Made by a program: the position numbers and the translations under genes. From the NCBI GenBank assembly GCA_913020715.1, contig CAJVZH010000013.1, positions 1 through 52,309 on the forward strand: DNA of 52,309 bases. Reading direction: 5' to 3'. The DNA comes from an uncultured Gammaproteobacteria bacterium. GTDB taxonomy: Bacteria; Pseudomonadota; Gammaproteobacteria; PS1; Pseudothioglobaceae. Shown here one piece after another: positions 27,559-31,653 of the stretch; within the stretch, counting starts at the first letter, position 1; every line of letters begins with the position of its first letter. The notes beneath the pieces are model-generated. The model saw only the letters and a program-made list of their open reading frames with translations. It had not been told where the DNA came from and searched no databases.

Positions 27559-28902
27559 CTATTTAATTTGCAAATACGCCTCCAATGAATCATCAAGTGC
27601 ACCAAGCCACGGCGTGTGGTGCGCCGGAGACTGTGTGCCTGTCATCAAAGAGGCATAGGATTTGTTTCGAAATGCCATAATGTCTTCTTTTTTATCTTTC
27701 TTCCAGCTTAAGAATGTTTGTCTCATGCCTTCGATATTGAAATTAGGGTAATCCGTCTCGTCGATCAACATTTGCATGTAATCACCTTGGAATTTAATCG
27801 CATAGCCAACATCGTCTTCGGCCACTTCCAGTGCGTGCCACTCTTTTGTGTGTGCGCTCATCTCTTCTAATGAAGGCAACTCAATCCTTCCCAGAATAAC
27901 GTCTCTTGCATACCAAGCTTGGGCATCGAACATATTAAAGGTGTACCACTGATCCTGCATAGCAAGATACATGAGTTGTGGGTTTTTCTCCCAAACTACA
28001 CCTTTGTAGAGATCCAATGGATACAAAATATTGTTTGTCTTCAAGCGCAGTGAATCCGGCAAGAATGGAAAATGATGCTGGTAACCCGTGCAAAGAATAA
28101 TTGCATCCACCTCTTTTGTACTGCCATCAATAAAGTGTACGGTATTGCCATCAATCTTAACAATACCTGGCTTTTCTTCCCAGTTATCTGGCCACTTAAA
28201 ACCCATTGGAGCAGAGCGATAACTACTGGTAATTGTTTTGGCGCCGTACTTGTAGCACTGTGAGCCGATATCCTCAGCAGAATAGCTACTGCCAACAATT
28301 AATAGGTCCTGGTCTTTAAATTCAAGAGCGTCACGAAAGTCATGTGCGTGCAAAATTCTGCCATTAAAGTGACTAAAACCCTCATATTCAGGAACATTCG
28401 GCGTTGTAAAATGGCCCGATGCGACAATCACATAATCAAATTCATCCGAGTAAGCCTTGTCTTCAATAAGGTCGTGAACTCGCACGGTAAACTTCTTAGA
28501 TTCTTCACAAAACGACACATCTCTTACAGCGGTGTTAAAGCGAATTTGATCCCTAACATTGGCTTTTTTAACTCTGCCTTGAATATAGTCAAACAAAACC
28601 TCCCTTGGAGGATAAGAGGCGATTGGGTGATCAAAGTGCTCTTCAAAGTAATAATCCGCAAACTCTAAACACTCTTTTGGACCATTAGACCAAAGGTAGC
28701 GATACATGCTGCTATGGGCAATTTCACCGTTTTGATCCAAACCTGTTCTCCAGCTGTAGTTCCACAACCCTCCCCAATTGGATTGTTTTTCAAAACAAAC
28801 AACTTCAGGCACATCTGCCCCTTTATCTTTAGCAGACTTAAATGCCCTTAGTTGAGCAAGGCCACTTGGTCCGGCGCCGATTATCGCCACTTTCTTATTC
28901 AT
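27559..28902 (-). CDS. tmm: trimethylamine monooxygenase (flavin-containing)
   Basis: A 447-residue FAD/NADPH enzyme that oxidises trimethylamine to its N-oxide. It matches known bacterial Tmm nearly end to end in motif order: [53 protein letters not shown] (FMO signature region), the NADPH fold [44 protein letters not shown], and [18 protein letters not shown] at the end. Two ATGs are possible; 28902 is preferred because AAAGGA lies 6 nt before it and touches the upstream one (28908). tdm and the TMAO transporter genes are not adjacent. Its promoter carries twin palindromes. Confidence 0.95.
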
Positions 28903-28962
28903 ACTCATTCCTTTTTTTTAAAACAATAAAAACCCTGATTTAGCGCCACAAGTAAATAAAAT

Positions 28963-29165: not shown

Positions 29166-29777
29166 TTAGCCTAAAAGCTCAAAAGCATTGATTACACTAT
29201 CGGCAACATCAGCAATACGCTTGTTTTTATCCATTGCCATTTTTCTAAGTGACTGATATGCCTCATCTTCATTGATTTTTTTATGCTTCATCAATAAGCC
29301 CTTGGCTTTTTCAACGGCTTTGCGTTCTGCTAACTGTGAACGCGTAGCGTCTAACTCGTCCCTAAGGGCTTGAAACTCTCTAAAACGAGCAATAGCAACG
29401 TCAATAATGGGCTGCACACGGTTTTCTTCTAGTCCGTCAACAATATAAGCATTGACACCAGATTTAATTGCAGCGCCCGCCATTTGATCACCTGAGCTTT
29501 CAGTAAACATTACAATGGGTTTTGGCTTGGTGTTATTCACATCCCGAAGATTAGCAAAAACCGCTTCATCAGGTATGTCAGCATTAACAATAACCACGTC
29601 AGCATGTGTCATCTCATTACTGGTTGCAAGATTTGCGCTACCCTCTAGACGACATATAACTTCATGCCCCTTATCTTGTAATGCTCGACGAAGAATGGCC
29701 GAACGACCCATATTCTCATCAACTAAAATAATTTTTAATGCCTCTGGATTCATTGTTAATATTGACTCGTATTTCAT
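29166..29777 (-). CDS. ANTAR-domain antitermination regulator (NasT/AmiR type)
   Basis: A 203-residue RNA-binding regulator. Residues about 10-125 form a receiver-like domain (IILVDENMG; acidic pair D20-E21) in which the usual phospho-acceptor position reads Asn (VIVNADIP, N65), so it is probably a pseudo-receiver. A coiled-coil linker (about 130-148) leads to the ANTAR domain (about 145-203): AERKAVEKAKGLLMKHKKINEDEAYQSLRKMAM in fragments ERKAVEKAKGLLM and EDEAYQSLRKMAM. Starts at 29777 and 29753 are both possible; neither has a clear ribosome binding site. It lies between amtB and tmm. The glnK leader carries a fitting RNA target. Confidence 0.92.
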   Translation of the reverse strand: MKYESILTMNPEALKIILVDENMGRSAILRRALQDKGHEVICRLEGSANLATSNEMTHADVVIVNADIPDEAVFANLRDVNNTKPKPIVMFTESSGDQMAGAAIKSGVNAYIVDGLEENRVQPIIDVAIARFREFQALRDELDATRSQLAERKAVEKAKGLLMKHKKINEDEAYQSLRKMAMDKNKRIADVADSVINAFELLG

Positions 29778-29842: not shown

Positions 29843-29872
29843 TTGAAAAATGGGGGTATTTCACCCCCATTT
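29843..29872 (-). terminator. intrinsic terminator after amtB
   Basis: On the minus strand AAATGGGGGT and ACCCCCATTT form a 10-bp perfect stem around GAAAT, followed by TTC, 16 nt after the amtB stop. The stem is strong, the T-run short. Confidence 0.75.
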
Positions 29873-29888
29873 AACAGGCTTACTTTGG

Positions 29889-31103
29889 TTATTTTGTTAC
29901 AAATTCTGGGTAAGCTTCCATGCCACACTCAGAAATATCAACACCAGAATCTTCCTCATTGGCAGATACGCGGATACCCATTATTGCTTTAAGGGCGAAC
30001 CATAGTGCTAATGATGCTCCAAACACCCAAACAAAGATGGTTGCTGCGCCAATTAGTTGACCAGCAAAACCAACATCACTGTTTGTTAATGGCACTGCCA
30101 ACAAGCCCCATAGACCAACAACACCATGCACTGAAATCGCTCCTACTGGATCATCGATTTTTAGCTTTCGATCTAGAATAACAATTGAGAAAACAACAAT
30201 TATTCCGCCAACCGAACCAATCAGTGTTGCTGCTAATGCACTTGGCGTGTCTGGTCCGGCCGTAATTGCCACCAATCCCGCTAAGGCACCATTAAGTGCC
30301 ATTGTTAGATCCGCTTTCCCAAACCAAGTCTTCGCAAGCAAAAGTGCTGCAATTACGCCACCTGCAGCTGCAGCATTGGTGTTGACAAATACCATCGCCA
30401 CTGCATCGGCACTTTCCTTGCTGGCCATGGCTAAGACTGAGCCGCCATTAAAACCGAACCAGCCCATCCACAAGATAAATGTACCCAAAGTTGCCAATGG
30501 CAAGTTTGCGCCTAACATTGGCTTAGAGTTGCCTTTTTTGTCATACTTGCCTTTGCGTGGGCCAAGCACAAGAACACCTGCAAGTGCTGCTGAAGCGCCC
30601 GCCATATGCACAATGCCAGAACCGGCAAAGTCATAAAAACCGTAATCAGCAAGGTCAAACAGTCCAAACACTTCTTGGCCACCCCATGTCCACGAACCTT
30701 CCAGTGGGTAAATAAAGACAGTAAAGATGACGGCAAAAAGAAAGAACGTAAACAACTTCATCCTCTCAGCCACAGCACCTGAAACAATAGACATTGCCGT
30801 TGCGACAAATACCACTTGAAAGTAAAAGTCCGAGGCGTTTGAGTAAGTCTCTCCCTCGCCACTAATACCATTCAAAAGCACGCCGCCTCCATACATTAAG
30901 TCGTAACCATAGAGCATATACATCGTACAGGCAATGGCAAACAGGCCAATGTTCTTAGTTAAGATTTCAGCAGTGTTTTTACTTCTAACCAGGCCAGCTT
31001 CCAACATTGAGAAGCCTGCCGCCATCCACATCACCAAAGCACCCATTACCAAAAAATAAAAGGTATCGATGGCATACTGTAATTCAAATAATTGATTTTC
31101 CAT
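29889..31103 (-). CDS. amtB: ammonium transporter
   Basis: A 404-residue, eleven-span ammonium channel. The pore histidines appear in SGIVHMAGASAA and ISVHGVVGLWG. The family motif FGFNGGS and the N-terminal GFSMLEAGLVRSKNT are intact. The frame continues upstream into glnK, but the ATG at 31103 is chosen: it follows a GGTGGG 4-5 nt upstream, sits 10 nt after the glnK stop and gives the usual topology. It is blocked by GlnK when nitrogen is replete. Same operon as glnK, ended by a hairpin. Confidence 0.95.
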   Translation of the reverse strand: MENQLFELQYAIDTFYFLVMGALVMWMAAGFSMLEAGLVRSKNTAEILTKNIGLFAIACTMYMLYGYDLMYGGGVLLNGISGEGETYSNASDFYFQVVFVATAMSIVSGAVAERMKLFTFFLFAVIFTVFIYPLEGSWTWGGQEVFGLFDLADYGFYDFAGSGIVHMAGASAALAGVLVLGPRKGKYDKKGNSKPMLGANLPLATLGTFILWMGWFGFNGGSVLAMASKESADAVAMVFVNTNAAAAGGVIAALLLAKTWFGKADLTMALNGALAGLVAITAGPDTPSALAATLIGSVGGIIVVFSIVILDRKLKIDDPVGAISVHGVVGLWGLLAVPLTNSDVGFAGQLIGAATIFVWVFGASLALWFALKAIMGIRVSANEEDSGVDISECGMEAYPEFVTK

Positions 31104-31113
31104 AATACCCACC

Positions 31114-31458
31114 CTACACTGCGTCAGGGCCAGATTCACCCGTACGAATACGGATCACTTGCTCTAAACTTGATACAAAAATCTTGCCATCGCCAATTGC
31201 CCCACCGTTGACTTTGCAGCACGCAATAATCGTCTCAATGACTTGCTCAACACGCTCGTCTGTGATGGCAATTTCCAATTTTACTTTTGGTAAAAACTCC
31301 ACCACAAACTCGGCACCGCGATAAAGCTCTGTATGGCCTTTTTGACGACCAAATCCTTTGACTTCAGTCGCGGTGATGCCTGTGACACCAATCTCAGAGA
31401 GTCCCTCTCTGACGCTATCCAGTCTTTTTGGCTGGATAATTACTGTTACCATTTTCAT
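31114..31458 (-). CDS. glnK: nitrogen regulatory protein P-II
   Basis: A 114-residue PII protein. The T-loop includes [20 protein letters not shown] with the uridylylation tyrosine (TELYRGAE), and the ATP-binding B-loop GDGKIFV is present. It senses ATP/ADP and 2-oxoglutarate and controls AmtB, with which it is co-transcribed. AGGAG lies 6 nt before the ATG. A long leader (about 180 nt) with an ANTAR-type antiterminator and a terminator precedes it, so expression is probably set by transcript elongation rather than only by initiation. Confidence 0.95.
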
Positions 31459-31481: not shown

Positions 31482-31521
31482 AAAAAAACCCGTTATCCAC
31501 GACACGTAGTGGGACAACAGG
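31482..31521 (-). terminator. leader intrinsic terminator before glnK
   Basis: On the minus strand CCTGTTGTCC (31521-31512) pairs with GGATAACGGG (31498-31489; two G-T pairs), and seven T follow at once (31488-31482). It ends 12 nt before the glnK ribosome binding site, so it must be bypassed for glnK-amtB to be made. Confidence 0.88.
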
Positions 31522-31551
31522 CTTCTATACCAGGGATTCTCTACTTTGAGA
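31520..31551 (-). promoter_or_regulatory. twin hexaloop ANTAR antiterminator element in glnK leader
   Basis: On the minus strand stem-loop P1 is TCTC-AAAGTA-GAGA (31551-31538). After a 6-nt linker, P2 is GGT-ATAGAA-GCC (31531-31520). Both loops have six bases with A at 1 and G at 4, the signature known for ANTAR targets. The 3' arm of P2 shares bases 31521-31520 with the terminator stem, so P2 and the terminator exclude each other. P2 has only three pairs (one G-T), which is the weak point. Confidence 0.72.
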
Positions 31552-31647
31552 TAGACGAAAAAAAACGCTTATTTCAGCTTAATAAATTAAACTCAAATAA
31601 ACGCCATCGTTGAAAACAACAACCTTCGTCGGCTGCCATTACGAACC

Positions 31648-31653
31648 ATTATA
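31648..31653 (-). promoter_or_regulatory. -10 element (TATAAT) of glnK-amtB
   Basis: A perfect TATAAT on the minus strand, placing the start near 31641 and giving the leader that contains the antiterminator. No good -35 at the right spacing and no sigma-54 element were found. Confidence 0.5.

Follow-up and report, generated by a model that had tools for sequence, protein, structure and literature searches.

A predicted tandem ANTAR-class attenuator in the glnK-amtB leader of an uncultured Pseudothioglobaceae bacterium

How glnK and amtB are switched on is the question raised by the leader of these genes in an uncultured gammaproteobacterium of the GTDB family Pseudothioglobaceae. The window, i.e. 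the whole stretch of DNA analysed here, comprises 52,309 nt, and all features described below lie on its reverse strand (-). The upstream neighbour of the glnK leader is a DNA ligase-like gene (33611-31668). The first gene after the leader is glnK (31114..31458), which codes for a P-II nitrogen regulator (Pfam P-II, 104.7 bits), followed by a gene for an amtB-type ammonium transporter (29889..31139; marine subtype TIGR03644, 616.8 bits), for which the ATG at 31103, just past glnK, is a likelier start than the GTG at 31139 of the listed open reading frame. Downstream of amtB a receiver-like plus ANTAR protein of the NasT type is encoded (29166..29777), the probable effector of the leader. A hairpin with a T-tract after amtB (29846..29872; -17.8 kcal/mol for the fold of 29880-29840), which was not flagged by the consensus terminator scan, is a possible terminator between amtB and the ANTAR gene and suggests, without proof, that the latter is transcribed on its own. 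The next gene downstream (27559-28908) matches the NCBIfam trimethylamine monooxygenase above cut-off (812 bits). With a probability of roughly 0.86 we read the glnK-amtB leader as a tandem ANTAR-class transcription attenuator, with the downstream NasT-type protein as its predicted effector.

The part of the leader next to glnK, which we call module B, is made up of two small hairpins with six-base loops carrying A at position 1 and G at position 4 (A1/G4 hexaloops) and of an intrinsic terminator. By reading and folding the sequence, P1b (TCTC-AAAGTA-GAGA, 4 bp, -2.5 kcal/mol) was located at 31538..31551 and P2b (GGT-ATAGAA-GCC, 3 bp, -0.9 kcal/mol) at 31520..31531, separated by the 6-nt linker ATCCCT (31532..31537); the published limits are stems of at least 3 bp and, in Enterococcus faecalis, a linker of 5-12 nt (PMC3369931). 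Terminator B (31482..31522; -19.9 kcal/mol with its U-tract) consists of a stem from 31522 to 31489, with a core from 31521 to 31489, followed by seven T (31488-31482), and its 5' arm has C31521 and C31520 in common with P2b. Terminator B went unflagged in the simple consensus scan. A scan for the whole architecture (two A1/G4 hexaloops with stems of at least 4 and at least 3 bp, plus a terminator overlapping P2), whose limits were chosen after the site was already known, returned exactly one site in the 52,309 bases of both strands, namely module B, and no site in 20 first-order Markov sequences of window length, one strand each. The whole leader is also unusually stable, with z = -5.03 and none of 200 shuffles equally stable. 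Base for base, module B is what the first-pass annotation had reported for the leader of glnK (hexaloops AAAGTA and ATAGAA, a 6-nt linker, a terminator sharing two bases with P2 and seven T); as an account of the leader it was incomplete, however, as it overlooked a second module in series with the first.

This second module, module A, sits directly upstream of module B within the same stretch of 31482-31653. P1a (31615..31640) is a 10-bp hairpin, whose stem covaries in the family, with the hexaloop GACGAA (31630-31625; G1, G4). P2a (31600..31611; AAC-GATGGC-GTT) has a degenerate hexaloop, which pairing of G1 with C6 would reduce to a tetraloop. Terminator A (31558..31603; -16.8 kcal/mol), whose 5' arm takes in the 3' arm of P2a, has a 17-pair stem with one mismatch and eight T (31565-31558). 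Since module A repeats the plan of module B upstream of it, the leader would consist of two ANTAR-type attenuators in series. The same plan is found in relatives: gtttcccAAAGACgggaagt ... aaacATTGACgttt precede the first terminator in L057, and cagtttAAAGTTgaactg ... ggtATAGAGgcc precede the second terminator in L037. In the window, as in its near relative L033, both loops of module A have G1; G4 is kept, while A1 has been replaced by G. In E. faecalis, A1 mutants were poorly induced (PMC3369931), and in RNA bound to EutV A1 is not contacted specifically and may serve to keep bases from pairing across the loop (PMC8934654). With its G1 loops and the tetraloop option of P2a, module A may work poorly or differently in the clade of the window, where only module B has canonical loops. 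Terminator A is intact in this clade despite the G1 loops.

Upstream of both modules lies a -10-like TATAAT (31648..31653), which together with TTCACT and an 18-nt spacer agrees with the sigma-70 consensus at 10 of 12 positions. Promoter-like sites as such are hardly in excess (2 found vs 1.2 expected in shuffles); a TATAAT is present upstream of module A in all six leaders printed. From its position, transcription would start just before P1a.

For comparison we used 83 genomes of the same GTDB family, 29 of them from the same genus. The family group includes Candidatus Thioglobus, Pseudothioglobus, Thiodubiliella, Ruthia, Ruthturnera and Vesicomyosocius, several of which are bivalve symbionts. 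An ANTAR orthologue was found in 68 of the 83 genomes, and 60 loci around the ANTAR gene were taken from the 67 other genomes with an ANTAR match. In 46 of these loci glnK was found; two of them (L061 and L084) had no readable region upstream of glnK and were left out, so that the leader counts refer to 44 loci plus the window (45 leaders). Of the 45 leaders, 42 have the P2/terminator arrangement of module A and, likewise, 42 have that of module B. By the search patterns, P2a is absent in L074, L088 and L089, and P2b in L060, L088 and L089; L074 was excluded for module A because the match lay within coding sequence, and L060 for module B because the wrong place was matched. The 3' arm of P2 lies within the terminator stem in every one of the 42 leaders of each module (8-21 pairs in module A, 11-22 pairs in module B), and the two folds exclude each other. 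Imposing the hairpins raises the folding energy of module B from -24.8 to -17.8 kcal/mol and that of module A from -30.2 to -20.3 kcal/mol; since the hairpins thus cost 7 and 10 kcal/mol, respectively, protein help would be needed to form them.

The overlap of P2 with the terminator also bears on the strongest rival explanation, in which the ANTAR protein does bind the RNA and either controls stability or translation, or favours termination by its binding. Complexes of ANTAR proteins with RNA have been described as controlling either translation or transcription (PMC8164766); however, P2 overlaps the terminator stem in 42 of 42 leaders in both modules, which is the arrangement of antitermination in the eut system (PMC3369931), and terminator B ends 23 nt ahead of the glnK start codon. 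We therefore regard control at another step, or in the other direction, as unlikely compared with antitermination.

The alignment of relatives' leaders that the first-pass annotation had proposed as a check came out in its favour: besides the presence of each module in 42 of 45 leaders, module A displays compensatory changes. In the 42 aligned rows of module A, 97.4% of 306 cells are paired, and 17 cells are double changes (5.0 in shuffles), a value reached by none of 500 shuffles and exceeding that of all slid versions of the alignment; pairs with a change on both sides number two, as many as or fewer than in 428 of 500 shuffles. For P2b, all 117 cells are paired and three are double changes vs 0.3 in shuffles, both numbers being partly by construction, and its pairs with a change on both sides are not clearly above shuffles (154 of 500 as high). 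The patterns for P2a and P2b require G4 and largely prescribe the letters of the stem, which makes these pairing counts partly a product of the search. In the P1a loop G4 is invariant (42/42), and A1 occurs in 34 of 42 leaders, the remaining eight having G1 and belonging to the genus of the window; in the P2a loop A1 occurs in 40 of 42, with G1 only in the window and L033. In all 14 rows from the genus, P1b is an A1/G4 hexaloop closed by 4 bp or more. Of the 28 rows outside the genus, 13 have an A1/G4 hexaloop on 3 bp or more and five have one on 4 bp or more, and the remaining rows have a five-base loop or an irregular hairpin. To judge by sequence, both modules thus seem usable across much of the family, though P1b is often irregular outside the genus.

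A few loci depart from this layout. In the symbiont genomes G042 and G033 (loci L088 and L089) glnK is kept and the ANTAR protein is retained, the leader modules are decayed, and no amtB match is present in the fetched region; before nirB, an element could be read in G033, and G042 has a model hit only. In six loci (L034, L035, L038, L039, L040 and L049) the ANTAR gene directly follows the ligase gene, with no glnK-amtB match between the two. Two genomes (G006 and G024) carry glnK-amtB with its leader at a place other than the ligase-ANTAR pair. Moreover, the element is retained in glnK leaders distant from the ANTAR gene (L130, L136 and L141).

To look beyond the aligned leaders we used covariance models. 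Model R1, derived from glnK leaders including module B of the window, matched 76 of the 83 family genomes at a loose threshold (E <= 0.5); of 143 genomes sampled across the class it matched, at E <= 0.01, the two members of the family and no others. Among the matches listed, 20 regions were fetched and read. The element precedes nirB in 11 of them, with two terminator-like T-runs visible by eye in all 11 and a NarK-type transporter gene visible after nirB in five; it precedes glnK in four, serC-serA in two and a NarK-type gene in one (G015). The elements before nirB (L123-L129, L131, L132, L137 and L140) include those of symbionts with genomes of about 1 Mb. In one locus (L133, genome G081) an ANTAR-type element lies before a gene that is porin-like by resemblance, without an NCBIfam match, and in another, of reversed orientation (L135, genome G078), an element (1198-1232) plus terminator precedes an open reading frame (1314-2249) for a 311-aa protein, located between the ligase gene and glnK. 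To check the gene names, a single example of each was compared with NCBIfam: the L125 NirB (766 bits) and the L122 SerC (543 bits) scored above the cut-offs, the serA and NarK examples below, the NarK example being a fragment. Within the genus, 8 of 20 printed serC leaders contain the hexaloop pair. A single element plus terminator stands before serC-serA in L122, L139, L149-L153 and L155-L157; a second serC lineage, to which the genome of the window belongs (69% identity), has no element in the printed leader, and G029 has both lineages.

As the matches of R1 to glnK leaders are partly by construction, we built a second model, R2, from the nirB and serC elements only. At E <= 0.1, R2 gave 52 matches, all of which lie inside glnK leaders, in 39 of the 44 glnK loci; elements taken from other genes thus find the leader of glnK, and the assignment of this leader to the ANTAR RNA targets, made beforehand from a single sequence, is supported by relatives. 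R2 misses L033, whose leader is most like that of the window, and also L037, L074, L088 and L089. In the 52 kb of the window, module B ranks first with R2, weakly (17.6 bits, E 0.1; the next at E 0.27), and in the whole genome the site is absent from the seven matches at E <= 10. With R1, searched up to E 10, the glnK leader stands out in its own genome with E 3.7e-4, the six others having E 0.9 to 9.6. In this genome, glnK-amtB appears to be the only target that can be named, and diverged elements could be missed by such models.

Two constitutive terminators insulating glnK-amtB from transcription of the ligase gene, with incidental hexaloops, would be another explanation of the leader. In most of the loci in which glnK was found, the ligase gene is matched upstream of it in the same orientation, and both terminators are strong. 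However, the promoter-like site is located past the ligase gene and ahead of both modules, and terminators in that place would silence glnK as well; incidental hexaloops, moreover, fit poorly with the covarying P1a stems, with the G4 found in every P1a loop, and with the recurrence of the same paired hairpins before nirB and serC. Insulation alone is therefore improbable. Least probable of all is a protein-free riboswitch that binds a metabolite such as glutamine or 2-oxoglutarate, an idea in line with a strongly structured nitrogen-operon leader with mutually exclusive folds and with a weak Rfam match to the nitrogen-stress RNA NsiR1 (12.8 bits vs a gathering score of 39; E 4.6), which we set aside because all five Rfam matches in the leader are weak (E 1.5 to 4.6) and stay below their gathering scores (in the window only tRNAs reach theirs), and against which also speak a conserved core of two tiny hairpins, presumably too small for a typical aptamer, and the finding of this core in genomes with an ANTAR gene.

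The preferred reading, an ANTAR-class attenuator, demands an ANTAR protein in the same genome. Indeed, the whole genome contains one ANTAR match (68.5 bits), and this is the protein encoded at 29166..29777, just downstream of amtB, as already pointed out in the first-pass annotation. Its identity to orthologues is at least 80% inside the family group and below 50% outside. In alignments it matches EutV with E 1.7e-20, Rv1626 with E 1.5e-17 and the ANTAR domain of NasR (4akk) with E 1.5e-11. In the EutV-RNA complex, Tyr164 stacks on G4, Met172 plugs the loop and Arg168 contacts the RNA (PMC8934654); the equivalents of all three residues are identical in 60 of 60 relatives. At the position of the phosphate acceptor, the protein of the window and all 60 relatives have Asn, in contrast to EutV and Rv1626, which have Asp there; the phospho-accepting Asp of a phosphorylation-driven protein of the EutV type is thus missing. 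The nearest ANTAR proteins outside the family (L226-L229; 39-49% identity) are encoded next to genes for substrate-binding proteins of the NasS/NrtA kind, in L229 also next to a gene that is NirB-like by resemblance. Because of these neighbours, themselves named by resemblance and position, we call the receiver plus ANTAR protein NasT-type. Read by eye, the acceptor positions of L226-L229 are Asp, Glu, Ala and Asp, so that the loss of Asp is not peculiar to the family.

A partner of the NasS kind was searched for with the protein of L229, which was named from its position after the ANTAR gene and from resemblance and is a weak match to a substrate-binding protein in NCBIfam. This query matched none of the 83 family genomes and all three positive controls; NasS as a partner was therefore rejected. 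PF13379 matches in the genome of the window weakly, below cut-off; above cut-off it occurs in 4 of the 83 genomes, all of the same genus, in frames of 334-353 aa that the NasS-like query does not match. A full NirB was found in 2 of the 29 genus genomes and not in that of the window; the NirB query matches all 29 at E <= 0.001, but in 27 of them the match is confined to partial stretches scoring no more than 88 bits. Sigma-54 (TIGR02395) was found in none of the 29 genus genomes, and in the family in 13 of 83 genomes at E <= 0.001 and in 4 of 83 above cut-off. The genome of the window is 94.7% complete and many others less so, which makes absence from a single genome weak. With rpoN in 0 of 29 genomes, control by NtrC/sigma-54 was rejected for the genus. 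The first-pass annotation had put antitermination 'in place of or on top of' NtrC/sigma-54 control; of these two options 'in place of' fits better, because neither sigma-54 (0/29, in a search directed at sigma-54 rather than at NtrB/NtrC) nor a NasS-like partner (0/83) was found, and 'on top of' loses ground.

Taken together, these results suggest the following mechanism. Starting at the TATAAT promoter, polymerase would meet two intrinsic terminators ahead of glnK, each with a 5' arm overlapping the second of two small six-base-loop hairpins. The ANTAR protein, when active, would bind the hexaloops as they emerge, with G4 stacked on Tyr and Met plugging the loop as in EutV, and would thereby hold P2, block the terminator and allow glnK and amtB to be read; with the protein inactive, polymerase would halt at one of the two terminators. 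The activating state is presumably nitrogen shortage. Binding, the direction (antitermination) and the identity of the effector are all inferred here. A wider scenario, which we put forward tentatively and consider rather doubtful, is that in the Thioglobus/SUP05 group a NasT-type protein lost NasS and its phosphate acceptor and became the main regulator of nitrogen status in place of Ntr/sigma-54, reading ammonium shortage directly or via P-II, the leader of which it would in turn control in a feedback loop, with the two antiterminators as a steep double gate.

If the attenuator reading is true, RNA antitermination would govern how marine sulfur oxidisers and the symbionts of vent mussels and clams take up ammonium and signal through P-II; once confirmed, it would account for the response of these small genomes, in which sigma-54 was mostly not found, to nitrogen status without the textbook system. 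The leaders of glnK, nirB and serC, with tandem and single modules and with canonical and decayed loops, form a compact natural set for testing how ANTAR proteins recognise RNA, and also suit the question of what an ANTAR protein without a phosphate acceptor or NasS senses.

The RNA class and its P-II and ammonium-transporter targets are already known, since the 2012 covariance search predicted them: the genes that it lists behind ANTAR RNAs include 'nitrogen regulatory protein P-II' and 'ammonium transporters', and it reports at least 13 ANTAR elements in six transcription units of one organism (PMC3369931). The names Ruthia, Vesicomyosocius and Thioglobus do not occur in the main text of that paper, and clam symbionts may be included in its Table S2; in the literature searched, which lay mostly outside subscription journals, we found no report of ANTAR control in Thioglobus/SUP05 or bivalve symbionts. 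With NasT/NasS of Paracoccus denitrificans (PMC3795266, PMC5424462) the system shares the element preceding nirB in the family and the NasS/NrtA-like genes adjoining the nearest outside proteins; unlike there, the NasS-like query is unmatched in 83 family genomes, and the genome of the window is without a full NirB match. In Paracoccus, nitrate or nitrite frees NasT from NasS (PMC3795266), and in a nasT mutant the expression of glnA and glnB was lower, with amtB little changed in the table given (PMC5424462). NasR at nasF of Klebsiella oxytoca and AmiR at amiE of Pseudomonas aeruginosa likewise act by ANTAR antitermination at a leader terminator; NasR senses nitrate via its own NIT domain and AmiR works with AmiC, whereas no NIT- or AmiC-like sensor is known for the ANTAR protein of the window. 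The circuit is thus a notable variant, which combines a NasT-type protein for which no NasS was found, an Asn receiver and a tandem gate in a genus in which no sigma-54 was found. From the eut RNAs and EutV it differs in the two modules in series, in the gene pair glnK-amtB and in a receiver with Asn instead of a phospho-accepting Asp. In the rest it closely resembles them: as in the E. faecalis eut RNAs (PMC3369931, PMC8934654), dual A1/G4 hexaloop hairpins are joined by a short linker and P2 overlaps the terminator, and as in EutV, a receiver plus ANTAR protein carries the RNA-contacting Tyr, Arg and Met (PMC8934654).
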